This document shows, piece after piece, positions 3,076 through 11,083 of a DNA stretch of 18,048 nucleotides. The stretch comes from Candidatus Aenigmatarchaeota archaeon. Lineage in GTDB: Archaea > Aenigmatarchaeota > Aenigmatarchaeia > QMZS01. The notes beneath the pieces were generated by a model, which saw only the letters and a list, made by a program, of their open reading frames with translations, searched no databases and was not told the DNA's origin. Every line of letters begins with the position of its first letter. Position 1 is the stretch's first letter. Where the stretch lies: the NCBI GenBank assembly GCA_016932615.1, contig JAFGCN010000028.1:1-18048 (forward strand), given 5' to 3'. A program made the translations under genes and the position numbers.

Positions 3076-3531
3076 CTACTTTCCGGTACTCCCAAATCCG
3101 CCCCCTCTGTCTCCGCCGCACTCTGCAACAGAGTCTACCTTCAACCATTCTATCCGGGGGCTTCTTGCTACAACCATCTGGGCAATCCTGTCTCCTTTTT
3201 TTATTTCAAAGGGCTCACCTGAAGTATTCTGCATGATGACCCCAACTTCATTTCTGTAGCCCGAGTCAATTGTGGCGGGGGCATTTGGCATTCTTAGAGG
3301 CGTCTTTGCCGAGAGGCCTGAGCGCGGGCGCATCTGGATTTCCCAGCCCCCAGGTATTGCAACCTTAAGCCCGGTCTTCAGTATCTTTGTCTCCCAGGGA
3401 TTCCAGGAAACGCCCTCAACTGAAAAAATATCTGCTCCCGCGTCTGTCGGGTTTGCGTATTGGGGAAGCTTTGCTTCGGGATGGCACAACTCGATTTTCA
3501 CGATTACGCTTTCCCTTATCGGCTCTGCCAT
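3076..3531 (-). CDS. dut: dUTP diphosphatase (trimeric dUTPase)
   Basis: 151 residues, the normal size for homotrimeric dUTPases, which hydrolyse dUTP to dUMP and diphosphate, keeping uracil out of DNA and supplying dUMP for dTMP synthesis. All five family motifs are present in order: AGADI (31-35), RPRSGLSAK (68-76), TIDSGYR (87-93) with the expected catalytic Asp89, KGDRIAQMV (112-120), and the C-terminal glycine-rich GGDRGGGFGSTG (139-150) with the aromatic residue that stacks on uracil. In motif 3 the residue after YR is Asn, where Gly is common. A TATA-like run (3546-3557) lies about 20 bases upstream of the ATG, consistent with its own leaderless promoter. Cytoplasmic housekeeping enzyme; the bifunctional dCTP deaminase family is less likely because the C-terminal glycine motif is intact. 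Confidence 0.95.
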   Translation of the reverse strand: MAEPIRESVIVKIELCHPEAKLPQYANPTDAGADIFSVEGVSWNPWETKILKTGLKVAIPGGWEIQMRPRSGLSAKTPLRMPNAPATIDSGYRNEVGVIMQNTSGEPFEIKKGDRIAQMVVARSPRIEWLKVDSVAECGGDRGGGFGSTGK

Positions 3532-3571: not shown

Positions 3572-3904
3572 CTATCGGGGCTTAATTTTGTCAAGATTTT
3601 TCCTTGGAACCATTTCGTAAACGAGACCGCCGGGGTAAGTTCCTGCCTGAAATATCTCAAGGCCATAATAGCGCGCTATGGCCGCAGGAAGCTGTCTGAA
3701 TTTCTTGTTGGCGGGACCCCATTCAGTAGTAACCAAATACCCCGTTCCATCATCCAGCATACTAAAACCGAACCTGCCTACGTCAGGGCACTCCCCACCG
3801 ACATATTTTGGATTCATCTCCGGCCACAGATTTAATTCAGGAATAATACACTTTTCACTTGAGAGGTGAGCTCTAAAATCCTCTGGTGTATATTTGGAAT
3901 CCAT
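3572..3904 (-). CDS. Small protein of unknown function
   Basis: About 110 residues from the ATG at 3904 (MDSKYTPEDFR). A longer form from 3925 adds MNCPNSN, but an AT-only run at 3925-3937 is centred about 27 bases upstream of 3904 and overlaps the longer start, so the shorter leaderless form fits better. The protein is soluble, with no signal peptide or membrane segment. It has a Pro/Gly/Trp-rich middle (LWPEMNPKYVGGECPDVGRF) and a region TEWGPANKKFRQLPAAIARYYG that looks structured. No family is recognised. It lies between dut and a KaiC-like ATPase on the same strand and appears separately transcribed. A real gene is favoured over a chance frame because of its promoter, terminator and lack of a competing frame. 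Confidence 0.6.
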   Translation of the reverse strand: MDSKYTPEDFRAHLSSEKCIIPELNLWPEMNPKYVGGECPDVGRFGFSMLDDGTGYLVTTEWGPANKKFRQLPAAIARYYGLEIFQAGTYPGGLVYEMVPRKNLDKIKPR

Positions 3905-3924
3905 ATTACTATTAGGGCAATTCA

Positions 3925-3937
3925 TTATTTAAATATA
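3925..3937 (-). promoter_or_regulatory. TATA-like box for the small unknown gene
   Basis: An AT-only run (minus strand TATATTTAAATAA) is centred about 27 bases upstream of the ATG at 3904. It overlaps the alternative ATG at 3925, which is the main reason for choosing the downstream start. Confidence 0.5.
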
Positions 3938-4016: not shown

Positions 4017-4682
4017 CTAAATGCTGAGGACCTTTATCCCGTCTTTCCCGATTTCAAACGGGTGAATATTCTCACTGTGCTTTGTTCGCCTCATCTTCTT
4101 TATGAACAAGTTTCGGCCTGCCTGGGGGCCGATGGGCGTAAAATCAAGGCGCACCACTGCATCAGTTATGTACTCTTCAACGCCAAGGCGTGAATAGGGG
4201 TTTTTCGGTGTGCCTTCGGAAACCATTATTACGGTAACCCCCTTTCGCCTCAACTCCGCAATCATCTCGTTCAGCTTGTTTCGAAGCTTCGCCTGGTCCT
4301 CCACAAATATCGAGAGGATGGATATGGAGTCCATCACCAGCCGTTTTGCCTTGTGCCTGTCCAGGTCAAGGAAATCAAGCTCCGGGTTCTCAAAAAGGTT
4401 TTTTTCGATTATGGCAAATTTTCCTGACTTTTCGTATTTTGAAAAATCCCAGCCAAATGCCTCGGCATCTTTCTTTATGTCTTCTGCCGTTTCCTCAAGC
4501 GTGATATACACTCCCGGCTCTCCTTTCTGAAGGCCTTCCCAAAGAAACCGAAGAGAGAATAGCGTCTTCCCTGTTCCTGCCTCGCCGCTTAATAGAACTG
4601 TAGAACCCTTTACAAATCCACCCTGAATCAACTTGTCAAGTCCCTGAATGCCTGTCGCGACCCTGTCCGAATCTCTCGGCAT
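4017..4682 (-). CDS. KaiC-like (RecA-superfamily) ATPase, single domain
   Basis: 221 residues from the ATG at 4682 (MPRDSDRVATGIQGLDKLI). A 20-residue upstream extension from 4742 would run across the promoter and palindrome, and the protein body starts exactly as KaiC domains do, so it is rejected. Seen: Walker A GEAGTGKT (33-40), the tandem catalytic glutamates in YITLEET (E63-E64), Walker B RLVMDS (Asp118), and a KaiC-type C-terminal strand KMRRTKHSENIHPFEIG (196-212). Family knowledge: archaeal KaiC-like ATPases form oligomeric rings and are thought to act in signalling rather than DNA repair; this one has one domain, not the two of the clock protein. It is divergently paired with an HTH-FIST regulator across a 139-base region holding two identical-class palindromes. 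RadA/RadB recombinases are less likely because the N-terminal HhH and DNA-binding parts are absent. Confidence 0.88.
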   Translation of the reverse strand: MPRDSDRVATGIQGLDKLIQGGFVKGSTVLLSGEAGTGKTLFSLRFLWEGLQKGEPGVYITLEETAEDIKKDAEAFGWDFSKYEKSGKFAIIEKNLFENPELDFLDLDRHKAKRLVMDSISILSIFVEDQAKLRNKLNEMIAELRRKGVTVIMVSEGTPKNPYSRLGVEEYITDAVVRLDFTPIGPQAGRNLFIKKMRRTKHSENIHPFEIGKDGIKVLSI

Positions 4683-4712
4683 AATAATACAACGATTTAT
4701 AAATACAGGGCA

Positions 4713-4721
4713 CTTTAAATT
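4713..4721 (-). promoter_or_regulatory. TATA-like box for the KaiC-like gene
   Basis: Minus-strand AATTTAAAG is centred about 35 bases before the ATG at 4682, predicting a start site near 4690 and an 8-base leader. A second candidate, TTTATAAAT at 4695-4703, is closer than usual to the start codon (17 bases). Confidence 0.4.
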
Positions 4722-4726
4722 GATTT

Positions 4727-4740
4727 GTGCACTTTTGCAC
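4727..4740. promoter_or_regulatory. Candidate operator 1, GTGCA-N4-TGCAC
   Basis: Perfect inverted repeat GTGCA-CTTT-TGCAC; with flanks the arms extend to TTGTGCA/TGCACAA (4725-4742). It sits just upstream of the TATA-like box of the KaiC-like gene, where archaeal activators or repressors bind. The same arms and the same 4-base spacing recur at 4794-4807. The identity of the bound protein is inference; the adjacent HTH-FIST protein is the obvious candidate. Confidence 0.6.
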
Positions 4741-4780
4741 AACAGACAAAAAATTTTAAATATTTATATAAAGTGTGTGA

Positions 4781-4790
4781 TTATATAATT
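4781..4790 (+). promoter_or_regulatory. TATA-like box for the HTH-FIST gene
   Basis: TTATATAATT is centred about 36 bases upstream of the ATG at 4822, predicting a start near 4811 and a leader of about 10 bases. An upstream alternative, TTTATATAAAG (4762-4773), would give a longer leader. Confidence 0.45.
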
Positions 4791-4793
4791 ATA

Positions 4794-4807
4794 GTGCATT
4801 GTTGCAC
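4794..4807. promoter_or_regulatory. Candidate operator 2, GTGCA-N4-TGCAC
   Basis: Perfect inverted repeat GTGCA-TTGT-TGCAC placed between the TATA-like box and the ATG of the HTH-FIST gene, overlapping the predicted transcription start. Binding there would block RNA polymerase, a classic arrangement for archaeal autorepression. Centre-to-centre distance to operator 1 is 67 bases. A further half-site-like CGCAC follows at 4812-4816. Confidence 0.6.
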
Positions 4808-4821
4808 CTAACGCACAAAAA

Positions 4822-6366
4822 ATGAGCGAAAAAAAAGTCCTAAAGGTTTTGGAGGAAAATCCAACTGGACTATCTATCACAGATATTGCTGAAAAGGCAA
4901 ATCTTCACAGAAATACGGTTGCAACGGTCGTAAGGCGGCTTCAGGATAAAAAAGCTGTCGAACTTAAGAAAGTTGGGCTTGCAAAAGTTTATTATCTTAA
5001 GCATTACCAGGCATTGCACCATATTGAATCCGCGTACAAGGGGCAAAACCTGTCTGTCGGCCTGGGGGTCAGCGACCTTGCCGATGGCTACAAGGCCGCA
5101 GTCTCCGCAGCCAAGCAGGCGGTAAACCAGTCGGGCCGCGGGGAACAGCCAACCTTTGCAATTGTTTTTGTCTCCTCACGATATAACGACCAGCTCTCTG
5201 CAGTGGTAACCGGGCTAAACCAGATTCTTGGGGAAAACACTTATATCGGCTGCACCACGGACAGGGAGATAAACTCTCTTTCCGGGTTCTGCCAGGGCAC
5301 AGTTTCAGTTCTTACCTTAAACACGAAATACCTCCACTTTGGAGTGGGCGTCGCAGAATATTACATAAAGCAGCCCTTTGAGGCGGGAAAGAAGGCAACA
5401 AAAGAGGCAATAGACAACTGCCCGGTGGATAGGTCAAACTACGCAACCGCCCAGTTCATGAGAGGCACGAAAAAGGCCTTTGCTGAAATTGTCAAAAACC
5501 CCCCCTACTTTGCCCTCACCTTTGTTGGGGGGGTGAGATTCGAAAACAAAGAAGTAGTGCCAAGCTTTGAGCACGAGTTCCTTGAAGGAATAAAGGAAAT
5601 CCTTGGGCCATTTATTCCCATTGTCGGCGGCTCGGCAGGAAGCGATTTCGACAAAGTTGACGATTTCGAAGGGGAAAATTATGTCCTTGCCAAGGGGAAA
5701 TTCTACAAAGGGGGAGCTGCAGTATGCTTTGTTGTTTCGGAACTCTTCTTCTCTTACGGTCTGGAGCAGGGATATATTTCCACGGAAAAGTACGGAGTAA
5801 TCACAAAGGTTTCGGACAACGGCAGGATGATTGACGAGATAAACAATCTTCCCGCCCTTGAAGAGTACTGTAAGCTCACCGGGCTCAAAAAGGAAACTTT
5901 CCTAAAAAATCCGTCCCAGTACCTTTCTCTTAGCAGCATGTGCACGCTTGATTCTGCCGGAAACCTCTACCCCATAGGAATGACTATGGCCAGCGCTGAT
6001 CCAAAAGAAACGAGGTTCTACAGCCAGCAAAAATTCATAAAGGGGACTTTGTTTGCAATAGGCAAATATGATGAGAAAAAAACCATAAACAGCACGATGC
6101 TTGCCATACAGGAGGCATGCATAGATAACGAAGACAAAATGCCCGTTCTGGCAATCAATATCAACTGCGCCACAAGAAGGTTCCTCCTTGGGGACAAGGT
6201 CAACGACGAGCTTGCCATGCTCCAGAAAGACCCAAAGCACAAGGACATGGTTTTCTTTGGTTTTCACTCTTTTGGCGAAATAGGGGCAAAAAGAAACCAG
6301 CCATCAAGCTACCTTGCGACAACTTCAACTTGCCTCGTCATTTTCGACAAGCTGATGGTTGAGTAA
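4822..6366 (+). CDS. HTH-FIST sensor protein, one-component transcription regulator
   Basis: 514 residues. Residues 1-62 form a winged helix-turn-helix (LSITDIAEKANLHRNTVATVVRRL, then a basic wing ending AKVYYL) like those of MarR/TrmB-type archaeal regulators. The rest matches FIST_N (about 75-305, with IGCTTD and PIVGGSAGSD) followed by FIST_C (about 340-505, with VITKVSDNGRMIDEINNLPALEEY, LAININCATRRFLLG and FHSFGEIG). FIST domains are predicted small-ligand sensors, possibly for amino acids; in bacteria they usually sit on histidine kinases, cyclases or chemoreceptors. Here the output is DNA binding, so ligand sensing and transcription control sit in one cytoplasmic protein (no signal or membrane segment). 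It is divergent from a KaiC-like ATPase and likely controls its own promoter and perhaps that of its neighbour. The domain calls are strong; ligand and targets are unknown. Confidence 0.88.
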   Translation: MSEKKVLKVLEENPTGLSITDIAEKANLHRNTVATVVRRLQDKKAVELKKVGLAKVYYLKHYQALHHIESAYKGQNLSVGLGVSDLADGYKAAVSAAKQAVNQSGRGEQPTFAIVFVSSRYNDQLSAVVTGLNQILGENTYIGCTTDREINSLSGFCQGTVSVLTLNTKYLHFGVGVAEYYIKQPFEAGKKATKEAIDNCPVDRSNYATAQFMRGTKKAFAEIVKNPPYFALTFVGGVRFENKEVVPSFEHEFLEGIKEILGPFIPIVGGSAGSDFDKVDDFEGENYVLAKGKFYKGGAAVCFVVSELFFSYGLEQGYISTEKYGVITKVSDNGRMIDEINNLPALEEYCKLTGLKKETFLKNPSQYLSLSSMCTLDSAGNLYPIGMTMASADPKETRFYSQQKFIKGTLFAIGKYDEKKTINSTMLAIQEACIDNEDKMPVLAININCATRRFLLGDKVNDELAMLQKDPKHKDMVFFGFHSFGEIGAKRNQPSSYLATTSTCLVIFDKLMVE

Positions 6367-6416: not shown

Positions 6417-7700
6417 ATGATGGTAGGTGGTAAAATGATACCTGGAAAGTTATATGGCAGTTTTAGTGAAATTTCACCCCCCGAAAGAGCAGAGCTAGCA
6501 AAAGACATTTATGAGAGATACTCCCAACTCACTCCATCGGAACAGGACATTGCAAGAGACCTGCTATACTACACTCTAGATGAAATGTCACCCGAAATGA
6601 GGTCCGGAGCAACGAACCTTCTGCTTGCAAAACAAGTGAAACGGTTATGGGAAACACCCTTTTATAACAGGTCCATGAAAAAGAAGGGAATTACTGCCCC
6701 CTCACAGATCTCAGACACAAACCGCTATTTCAAAAACATGCCAATTTCTTTCAAAAATCAGATAGTAAACTCAAGGTATGGTTGGGCGGGTGTGTTGTCC
6801 CCGGAACATAGACTAGCCGCACGCGGCAAAAATACCCCTGGAAAAGACAAAATACAGGTAATGTACTCTACTTCAGGCACAACAGGGCCTCCTTTTGAAT
6901 GCTACTACTCCAAAAGAGACGCCTACTTTACTCCAGCAATTTTTGGAAAGGCCTTAAGCGACATAAAGGCAAGCGAATTCAGCCCTTCCTACAATGTATT
7001 CAATCCACGGAGTATTGGGTATTGGGTCGTTCAAAATGCCTTTCCCGAGGCAGGGGTAACTCCCTTCTCGCCACACCCCACAAAAGACCTTGCCTATGAG
7101 CTTAATTTTTTGAGAGACCATGAAGTAAAGTCCATTTTCGGATCTACTGACCTGAAAAAAGGAGGAATTCAAAGATACCTATACCCAGAAAAAAACGCAG
7201 ACAAAAAAGAGCCAAAGTTGCTAAGTGCTGAAGACATATTTGGAAAGGGTGGGGTTGAAAGAGTTTACTTTGCGGGAGCAAGCATGCCAAAGGAACTTCT
7301 AGATAGGTTAAGAGATCTGGGTGTGATTGATGTTTGCGAAGGCCAGGGAACTTCAGAACAAACGGGAATGGGCACGGGAACGTATGGCAGAAAATACCCC
7401 CATTATCAGCGCGGAATATGCCGGCTAAAGCCACAGTATCTGGTAGAAGTCGTAAACATAGATAGCCTCACCGAAGGGTCTCCCCCCTGGCATGTTGACG
7501 TGGGGGAGAGAGGAATCCTGCTCAAGACTCCCCTCAACAGAACCGGGACAAAGCTTGGCAGATACGCTTTTGATGAAGCTACCTACCTTGGAACCGACCC
7601 TAAGACAGGGGAAGTCCTGATATCAGACCTTTCAAGACTGCGTGATCCAAGTACGGGAACCTACCTGAGCGACCTCGGGCAGTGTGGTGGGGGCATATAG
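6417..7700 (+). CDS. LuxE-like acyl-activating (acyl-protein synthetase/PaaK-like) enzyme
   Basis: 427 residues from 6417. ATGs at 6420 and 6435 are alternatives; the last follows AGGTGG by four bases and may be the true start (MIPGKLYG). Seen: the adenylate-forming P-loop YSTSGTTGPP (150-159), the acid-rich motif EGQGTSEQTG (308-317, matching the YGxTE position), and DVGERGILLKTPL (361-373) leading to RYAFDEATY near the RYxxGD position. These mark the LuxE/phenylacetate-CoA-ligase branch, which activates a carboxylic acid as acyl-AMP and passes it to a thiol. Its stop is four bases before the start of a LuxC-like reductase, so the two are translationally coupled. Expected role: activate an acyl group that the partner reduces to an aldehyde. 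The substrate is unknown, and there is no luciferase here. Plain acyl-CoA ligase activity is the main alternative. Confidence 0.8.
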   Translation: MMVGGKMIPGKLYGSFSEISPPERAELAKDIYERYSQLTPSEQDIARDLLYYTLDEMSPEMRSGATNLLLAKQVKRLWETPFYNRSMKKKGITAPSQISDTNRYFKNMPISFKNQIVNSRYGWAGVLSPEHRLAARGKNTPGKDKIQVMYSTSGTTGPPFECYYSKRDAYFTPAIFGKALSDIKASEFSPSYNVFNPRSIGYWVVQNAFPEAGVTPFSPHPTKDLAYELNFLRDHEVKSIFGSTDLKKGGIQRYLYPEKNADKKEPKLLSAEDIFGKGGVERVYFAGASMPKELLDRLRDLGVIDVCEGQGTSEQTGMGTGTYGRKYPHYQRGICRLKPQYLVEVVNIDSLTEGSPPWHVDVGERGILLKTPLNRTGTKLGRYAFDEATYLGTDPKTGEVLISDLSRLRDPSTGTYLSDLGQCGGGI

Positions 7701-7704
7701 CAAT

Positions 7705-9114
7705 ATGGCAGGAACAAGTGCCTTACCTATAAGGCAATCTGGAGCACCCAGTTACAAAAATATAAGGCCCTTCAACGTAGATAATGTGATTGGAGGGGAA
7801 TCAAGACAGGCAAACAAGGGCGATGCGCTACCCCTTTATACTATTTTCAGAGAATTTGCAGGAACTGTTCCAAACTCTGAGGAATCTGACCTAATGGAGG
7901 CCTTTTCCTATGCCCGAGATTATGCCAAAAAAATCCCATATGCCCGGCGTGTAGACGACGGAATAGAAGCTGTAAGAAAGGCCTCAAAGGAGCTTTTATC
8001 AAAGCGGGAAGACAGAGAAAGAATTGCGGCCCTTACAGGAAGCCAAACCCTTAAGTCTATTGAGGGCACACTGGACCTTTTCAAAGGCTGGGCTGATGGA
8101 ATTGGCAACTTATATAGCCAGATTATAGATGATGAAGGAAAACTCCTCTACAAATCAGGAATAAATGCGGGAATTCTTCCCGGAAACGTAAGCATATCCG
8201 GGACATGGACCCAATCGCTGTCTGCATTGGTTGGACCAATGGTAACGCGACCTGATCGTCGTGGATCTTTTGTAGCTTCAAGCTATGCGCAGTTGCTTGC
8301 AGATAATGGCTACCCTGGTGTTCAGGCAGTCAACTGGTCCTCAGAATTACACCCAAACCTTATACAAACACTCATTTCAGAAGGTCTCAGGGAAGGAAAA
8401 GTCCATTTTTTCGGAAGCAACGATACAATCAATGAAATTCTTCCTACTGAACTCAAAGACCACCCAAACCTCATCGCTTATGGAAGCGGACATGGCATGG
8501 CAATAGTTGATGAAACTGCAGATCTGGAACAAGCAGCAAAATTCTGCGTTCAGGGAAGAATATTCAATACCGGAAACATGTGTACCTGCACCAATAATGT
8601 TATTGCAGTAGGAGATACTACCTATGATAAGCTTTTGAATTACTTTGAAGGATGTAAGGAGACCCTTATGCCGGGAGATCCAAGAAAGCCCGACTCAGAC
8701 CTAGGCTGGATTGGAAGCCATGACCTGCAAACTATAGTCAAGCCCTTACTTTTGGAGCATACTGTGGCGCCTGATGAGGTGATAGTCAATTATGACTATA
8801 TGAAATTCACCCCGATAGAGACAAATCCTCACTCGAAGTTTGCAAGAAAAGAATGGCCTTATCCGATTCTTGGGATTATGGGTGCAGATAACATGGACAA
8901 AGCAATCGATATGGTTGGGGCTTGCCTGGAGCCAGGATGCAAATCCATCTGCGTAGGACTGCACATGGACCCGGATAAGCCAGACTTGCTCACTAAATAC
9001 ATAACTGCCCTGAAGCCCTATGCGCACAAGGTTGCGACTAATAACTCAACTACCAACATGGACCTCAATTGCCACCAAGGCCTAACTATCAGAAATATGA
9101 TGAGACCCATCTGA
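7705..9114 (+). CDS. LuxC-like acyl reductase of the aldehyde dehydrogenase superfamily
   Basis: 469 residues from ATG 7705. A GTG-started form from 7684 would overlap the upstream gene; GGTGGGGG at 7686-7693 looks like a ribosome-binding site and favours 7705. Seen: an ALDH-type Rossmann and catalytic layout with FFGSND (235-240, FxGS position), FNTGNMCTC (287-295) giving nucleophile Cys293, and KEWPYPILGIMG (382-393). Thirty-four residues before the cysteine, where hydrolytic ALDHs carry the general-base Glu, stands Tyr259 in AYGSGHG. Loss of this Glu is known in acylating enzymes (LuxC, CoA-acylating ALDHs), which release or reduce thioesters instead of hydrolysing them. Together with the LuxE-like partner this suggests acyl-AMP to acyl-enzyme to aldehyde, using NAD(P)H. 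The CoA-dependent acylating ALDH family is the main alternative. Cytoplasmic; no membrane segment. Confidence 0.78.
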   Translation: MAGTSALPIRQSGAPSYKNIRPFNVDNVIGGESRQANKGDALPLYTIFREFAGTVPNSEESDLMEAFSYARDYAKKIPYARRVDDGIEAVRKASKELLSKREDRERIAALTGSQTLKSIEGTLDLFKGWADGIGNLYSQIIDDEGKLLYKSGINAGILPGNVSISGTWTQSLSALVGPMVTRPDRRGSFVASSYAQLLADNGYPGVQAVNWSSELHPNLIQTLISEGLREGKVHFFGSNDTINEILPTELKDHPNLIAYGSGHGMAIVDETADLEQAAKFCVQGRIFNTGNMCTCTNNVIAVGDTTYDKLLNYFEGCKETLMPGDPRKPDSDLGWIGSHDLQTIVKPLLLEHTVAPDEVIVNYDYMKFTPIETNPHSKFARKEWPYPILGIMGADNMDKAIDMVGACLEPGCKSICVGLHMDPDKPDLLTKYITALKPYAHKVATNNSTTNMDLNCHQGLTIRNMMRPI

Positions 9115-9898: not shown

Positions 9899-11005
9899 CT
9901 AGAACAGGCACATATCCCCATAGGTGTCCCTGACCAGGCCTTCATCCACTTTTTGGGAAAATAGGCGCTCCAACTCCTCATGAGACTTAATCTGGCTTAC
10001 GGCATCCATTACCCTCAAAGAATGCTGTTTTATGCCCGCCCGTCGGGATTCTCCTACCTTAAGACCTCGAAGCTCCGAATCCAAGATCTTCCGAACGCTT
10101 TTGTCCTTTTCTTCCAAGCCATTAAGACAGTCCATTGTCCTGCCAAATTCCTGCAGCCCTATAAAATTACGCCACCTCCTATAATCCTCAAGGTCTCCTG
10201 ATCGAAAAAGGCGGTAATCCGGGTCTATATCAAAAATGGGTTTCCCCCGGGGAACTGTGCAAAGCTCAAAATAACCCCTATCTTGGTCAACAACCCCCAC
10301 ACCCCACTCTGCGCCAAGCAAGGAAGCCAGGTCTTCATCATCAAATCCAATCGACCCAATGCTCGGGTAATAATTTCGAATCCATAGAATCTCCCCATCT
10401 CCCGATACAGAAAAAGGAATCATCTTGGGTATGATTCGGGGAATTTTTTTCTTATTCTTTATGTCCTCAAGAGACCTCACCGAGCCGTCAATTAAGCCCT
10501 CTGTAGCAGTGACATAATTTGCCTCAGACACGGGGGTGAGATTTCCCGGTTTTTTAACCCCAACTCCAGGGGACATTCTTTTTGCCTCAAAATCCGTATA
10601 CTTCACCCTAGATTGCCTTAAAACCAGTGGAGACAATTCTTTTCCATTTTCGTCCTCCACTACCAACAAAGCCATACTTGGAGTCTTCTGGGCAAGATAG
10701 GGATTATAGTAACTATCTCTCCGGGGCACGACATAACCGCTCCGTTTTCTTCCCCCCTCAAGAGTCAGCTCTGAAGCTATTTGAGGAGGTTTCCACTTGC
10801 CAAATAAGTCAGACCTCTCCCTATCATGATTTATCAAATCATCCATATCAGACCTAGAGCCATACTTTTGAGCATTCCTGCTTAGCCTCACATTGTAAGC
10901 TACTAACTCGCCAAGCCCCGAGTAAAGCTCTGTAAAAATTGCCGAGGGGTCTATCTCCCTGCCGCTTTCCGTAAACCGGAGATTTTGTATATCTTGAGCT
11001 ATCAT
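9899..11005 (-). CDS. Protein of unknown function, about 368 residues
   Basis: I do not recognise a family. From ATG 11005 (MIAQDIQNLRFTESG) the protein has 368 residues; in-frame ATGs at 11032 and 11053 give 377 and 384. A TATA-like run at 11038-11045 predicts a start near 11017, favouring 11005. It is soluble and highly charged, with no signal peptide, membrane helix or cysteine cluster. Visible features are an N-terminal helical part rich in R/D (about 50-75), a beta-rich middle (SMALLVVEDENGKELSPLVLR; IPKMIPFSVSGDGEILWIRNYY), an acidic patch GFDDEDLASLLGAEWG, and a helical C-terminus (SHEELERLFSQKVDEG). It lies between rps4e (32-base gap) and DUF1512 on the same strand. No motif supports a reaction. 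Confidence 0.7.
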   Translation of the reverse strand: MIAQDIQNLRFTESGREIDPSAIFTELYSGLGELVAYNVRLSRNAQKYGSRSDMDDLINHDRERSDLFGKWKPPQIASELTLEGGRKRSGYVVPRRDSYYNPYLAQKTPSMALLVVEDENGKELSPLVLRQSRVKYTDFEAKRMSPGVGVKKPGNLTPVSEANYVTATEGLIDGSVRSLEDIKNKKKIPRIIPKMIPFSVSGDGEILWIRNYYPSIGSIGFDDEDLASLLGAEWGVGVVDQDRGYFELCTVPRGKPIFDIDPDYRLFRSGDLEDYRRWRNFIGLQEFGRTMDCLNGLEEKDKSVRKILDSELRGLKVGESRRAGIKQHSLRVMDAVSQIKSHEELERLFSQKVDEGLVRDTYGDMCLF

Positions 11006-11083
11006 AAGTATATTTAAATATTTATTACCCATATAGGATAAATACTGATTCATAAGTTTCCGGCAGATTTTCGCTCAGAAAAA

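Follow-up and report, generated by a model that had tools for sequence, protein, structure and literature searches.

The window analyzed here, an 18,048-nucleotide stretch of contig JAFGCN010000028.1 of a Candidatus Aenigmatarchaeota archaeon, contains two divergent genes whose start codons (ATG at 4682 on the minus strand and at 4822 on the plus strand) enclose a gap of 139 bp. On the minus strand lies a single-domain KaiC-like ATPase gene, kaiC (4017–4682; Pfam KaiC, 1.4e-63), and on the plus strand a gene designated HTH-FIST (4822–6366), encoding a winged helix-turn-helix (HTH) domain at residues 1 to ~66 followed by FIST_N and FIST_C domains (Pfam FIST 4.8e-28, FIST_C 1.8e-10, HTH_24 7.2e-6) and proposed here to be an operator-binding sensor. 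Likely cotranscribed with HTH-FIST is a gene for an AMP-binding (acyl-activating) enzyme-like protein (6417–7700, plus strand), with a Pfam AMP-binding match of 3.2e-5 that falls below the curated cut-off, and overlapping it is an aldehyde-dehydrogenase-family gene (7684–9114, plus strand; Pfam Aldedh 2e-18). Two further open reading frames of the window, 3572–3925 and 9899–11053, both on the minus strand and of 117 and 384 residues, gave no Pfam match.

Sensor and DNA-binding domain of HTH-FIST are joined in a single chain, as in a one-component regulator, according to the Pfam assignments and a confident model of the HTH part. In an AlphaFold2 prediction from five sequences this part mostly has pLDDT values of 70–92, while the FIST part is unusable. 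The best matches of the HTH domain are HTH_24, Penicillinase_R and IclR, and the motif LHRNTV (residues 28–33), which opens the predicted recognition helix, is invariant in all orthologues. The NCBIfam NosP model matches HTH-FIST at 4.5e-21 and 75.3 bits, below its cut-off of 450.

Palindromes and Promoter Anatomy

The sequence-only reading had placed the gapped palindrome GTGCA-N4-TGCAC twice in the intergenic gap and nowhere else in the window, and an exact scan bears out both statements. The two copies, candidate operators with no strand assigned, are P1 (GTGCACTTTTGCAC, 4727–4740) on the kaiC side and P2 (GTGCATTGTTGCAC, 4794–4807) on the HTH-FIST side. Shuffling of the window predicts 0.01 exact copies, and two copies appeared in none of 200 shuffles; among first-order Markov versions of the gap, 0.08% held one exact copy and none of 200,000 held two. 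The whole genome (1.26 Mb) has three exact copies, the third of which (C6:2316–2329) lies within an RNase Z-like coding gene. A copy with a single mismatch, GTGCTTAAATGCAC, is found at C11:16071–16084 (L096:1001–1014), some 49 bp upstream of a start codon whose protein is predicted to be secreted, and is possibly a promoter target as well, the sole other plausible one seen in this genome.

Midway between P1 and P2 lies a self-complementary TATA box, TTTATATAAA (4763–4772, no strand assigned), whose center at 4767.5 is 34 bp from the center of P1 and 33 bp from that of P2, and which may serve as a shared bidirectional promoter. In Pyrococcus furiosus transcription starts 23 bp after the final conserved A of the TATA element, and boxes shared by two directions give starts ~50 bp apart (PMC6640164). 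Applied to TTTATATAAA, this rule predicts starts at ~4793 on the plus strand and ~4742 on the minus strand, 51 bp apart and at most 2 bp from P2 and P1, respectively. The symmetry of the box is only suggestive, since the spacer between P1 and P2 is AT-rich and contains further palindromic 10-mers. An alternative TATA-like box, TATTTATAAA, lies on the minus strand at approximately 4700–4708, ~22 bp before the kaiC ATG. P1 had been described as standing behind this kaiC-nearest box, and its position upstream of it holds, with the adjustment that P1 also directly follows the perfect mid-gap box. Across the promoters compared (see below), a TATA-like box begins 28–34 bp before the palindrome in four of five (three of the four relatives), and in the window does so on both sides; in G071, no good TATA box stands 30 bp ahead of the palindrome.

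Conservation and Specificity of the Palindrome

Four other genomes, G006, G001, G025 and G071, have an orthologue of HTH-FIST, whose identity to the protein encoded in the window is 60, 61, 51 and 47%, respectively; the G001 gene is split across two contigs. A contig search with the orthologue alignment led back to these four genomes, all of them assigned to Aenigmatarchaeota, and a contig search of the genome collection with the single HTH-FIST protein recovered no relative. Viral contigs yielded none either, and a plasmid search returned distant bacterial FIST proteins only (~24% identity).

Conservation of the palindrome alongside the gene, and a genomic frequency other than random, had been put forward as checks on the sequence-only reading, and both came out in favor of its autoregulatory part. 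An exact GTGCA-N4-TGCAC precedes HTH-FIST in all five genomes with the gene, 9 bp before the ATG in G006 and G001, 19 bp in G025, 13 bp in G071 and 14 bp in the window; at these distances of 9–19 bp the site lies within the regulator's own promoter, as expected of an operator. In each of the four relatives this site, the counterpart of P2, is the single exact copy genome-wide. In a scripted comparison that used the palindrome as anchor, the six promoter sites proved invariant at all 10 arm positions and variable in the N4 spacer, whereas the 49 flanking bases are 33–53% identical between genomes. Four independent matches within 35 bp upstream would arise by chance with a probability of roughly 2e-20, a figure that ignores shared ancestry; G001 and G006 have more flank sequence in common, so that the five genomes represent about four independent lineages at most. 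The G071 promoter (L036) carries an additional half site, GTGCACC, just upstream of its palindrome at 3302–3315.

Within its genomes, the site is also nearly restricted to the promoter of the fused gene. The 95 genomes scanned (~76 Mb) contain 33 exact copies, six of which are the promoter sites above and ~27 of which lie elsewhere; the part of the copies in other genomes that was examined for a wider regulon lies mostly within open reading frames. Of the single-mismatch copies examined in the five genomes with HTH-FIST, 36 of 40 are inside coding sequence. An exact copy in G012 between a helicase gene and a SAM-synthetase-like gene was considered as a regulon member and is taken as chance. 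The eight genomes of the same family that have no HTH-FIST orthologue contain no exact copy. Another five genomes of the phylum have FIST genes that lack the fused HTH, and the palindrome does not occur upstream of these. The site is thus kept with the regulator (5 of 5) and absent from FIST genes that lack the fused HTH, as would be expected of the regulator's operator. Two of these FIST genes, in two genomes, belong to a split form of HTH-FIST, in which a small HTH gene stands directly upstream of FIST, overlapping it or 15 bp apart (L066:1178–2805, L067:1498–3147); the recognition helix of these separate HTH proteins is different, and the palindrome is absent there too.

Gene Neighborhood

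A KaiC-like gene, the best KaiC match of its genome, adjoins HTH-FIST in all four relatives. It lies upstream of HTH-FIST in the same direction and is inverted in the window genome, and the kaiC promoters of the relatives have no palindrome of their own; among the five genomes, P1 occurs only in the one in which kaiC is divergent. Since the relatives lack the kaiC palindrome and have kaiC codirectional with HTH-FIST, it is the promoter of HTH-FIST, not kaiC, that makes up the conserved target. Downstream of HTH-FIST come genes of the acyl-activating and the aldehyde-dehydrogenase or acyl-reductase kinds: AMP-binding and Aldedh genes are found in the window and in G006, LuxE and LuxC in G071, and Aldedh in G025. 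LuxE and LuxC, the pair expected of a LuxCE fatty-acid reductase operon, exceed their Pfam cut-offs beside the regulator in G071; the window has Aldedh and the below-threshold AMP-binding gene, which could not be aligned to the G071 LuxE. The similarity of the window's downstream enzymes to those of G006 and G071 is marginal, with strong divergence between genomes, and it is therefore only the type of enzyme that recurs.

LuxE or AMP-binding genes follow FIST in several relatives. In this phylum, what follows a FIST gene without HTH is mostly a LuxE-like gene for an acyl-protein synthetase (L067, L069, L072, L074) or a gene of similar size without a Pfam match (L066, L071), and at two loci (L068, L070) such a FIST gene stands tail-to-tail with a KaiC gene. 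These arrangements suggest a functional link between FIST, KaiC and LuxE that reaches beyond the HTH-FIST family.

Interpretation

Judged from sequence and gene context, the palindrome is very probably the operator of HTH-FIST autoregulation, with the HTH-FIST protein as the binder. A dimer would bind GTGCA-N4-TGCAC via its N-terminal winged helices. At P2, which lies in the core promoter downstream of the TATA box and ahead of the start codon, the bound protein would block polymerase or the start complex, so that HTH-FIST would repress its own gene together with the downstream acyl-activating and aldehyde-dehydrogenase genes; a small molecule acting on the FIST domain may then relieve this repression. 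That HTH-FIST represses is deduced from the position of P2. In the window genome, P1 would put the inverted kaiC under HTH-FIST control as well, probably via the one self-complementary TATA box that both genes would share, each start having an operator of its own; the two operators flanking this symmetric box point to a bidirectional promoter that serves both genes and is repressed. As the best explanation overall we regard this combination of HTH-FIST operators, ligand-relieved repression at P2 and P1 acting on kaiC as likely. The sequence-only reading had proposed an autoregulated sensor circuit controlling KaiC. Its autoregulatory half is supported, the site being kept in four of four relatives; control of KaiC would hold for the window genome only. 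We infer that the conserved circuit comprises HTH-FIST autoregulation and the downstream acyl-activating and aldehyde-dehydrogenase genes, and that kaiC control via a site of its own is special to the window genome.

Four other explanations were weighed. A chance repeat in an AT-rich promoter, which a short 14-bp motif with four free positions might invite, is contradicted by the five-genome conservation and the rarity tests and is scarcely conceivable. The palindrome might instead act in RNA, as a hairpin (5-bp stem, 4-base loop) that opens the messenger just ahead of the start codon and controls translation or stability: if transcription starts at the palindrome, this would form the first bases of the leader, and each copy folds alone into a 5-bp (or 7-bp) hairpin. 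The arms, however, are unchanged and show no compensatory change across proteins that are 47–61% identical, where an element conserved for structure only should vary, and the stem is unremarkable compared with shuffles in most rows (z of −0.8 to −2.0; the one strong row contains a second hairpin), which makes such a role very unlikely.

The operator might also be bound by a different regulator, encoded elsewhere, with HTH-FIST as target only, since binding by HTH-FIST is itself deduced and these genomes encode other winged-HTH proteins. Such a regulator, acting independently, should have further promoter targets, whereas within genomes the site is all but restricted to the HTH-FIST promoter and, from one genome to the next, goes with the gene that has the fused HTH; we hold this option to be quite improbable. 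HTH-FIST could also activate kaiC, with P1 upstream of the kaiC-proximal TATA box recruiting TBP/TFB. The ~20 bp that separate P1 from that box, itself ~22 bp before the ATG, would suit an activator; against this, the conserved P2 occupies a repressor position between TATA box and start codon, and the distance from the kaiC-proximal box to the ATG is short for a leaderless transcript. Activation is rated as unlikely. A more elaborate reading, in which the fused FIST and DNA-binding domains of this uncultured lineage act as a one-component switch at a symmetric TATA promoter that works in both directions, each start with its own operator, and so couple the KaiC-like ATPase to an acyl-to-aldehyde reducing pathway, is offered as a tentative idea that is more doubtful than not.

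Comparison with Known Systems

An autoregulated one-component regulator is a known, ordinary kind of device, of which this is an unusually clean example. What is new lies in the sequence of the operator, in the family of archaeal HTH-FIST proteins and in the predicted symmetric promoter with two operators. To our knowledge, GTGCA-N4-TGCAC is unlike the operators familiar for TrmB-type archaeal repressors, and we know of almost no regulator–operator pair from this uncultured, DPANN-type phylum. The site provides a concrete, predicted DNA target for FIST sensors, for whose archaeal members we found no described function, and the recurring neighborhood of FIST, KaiC and LuxE/LuxC-like genes suggests what the sensor may monitor.

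The putative shared promoter would resemble the bidirectional promoters of P. furiosus in its self-complementary TATA box and in the spacing of its starts, predicted here to be 51 bp apart and 49 bp apart in the published in vitro case (PMC6640164). In P. furiosus, transcripts in the reverse direction are for the most part antisense and presumed to have no function, whereas here genes lie in both directions and an operator sits at each predicted start. The regulator is like the autoregulated one-component repressors of the archaeal TrmB family (reviewed in PMC4158304) in being a winged-HTH protein with a proposed action at the core promoter via a palindrome, and differs from them in its sensor, which is FIST in place of the sugar-binding domain of TrmB. 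With NosP, the bacterial FIST-domain nitric-oxide sensor (PMC12570481), HTH-FIST shares the FIST_N/FIST_C sensor domain, and is related to it, with a score far below the NosP cut-off. The output of NosP goes to a histidine kinase that is a separate protein; HTH-FIST carries its own DNA-binding domain.
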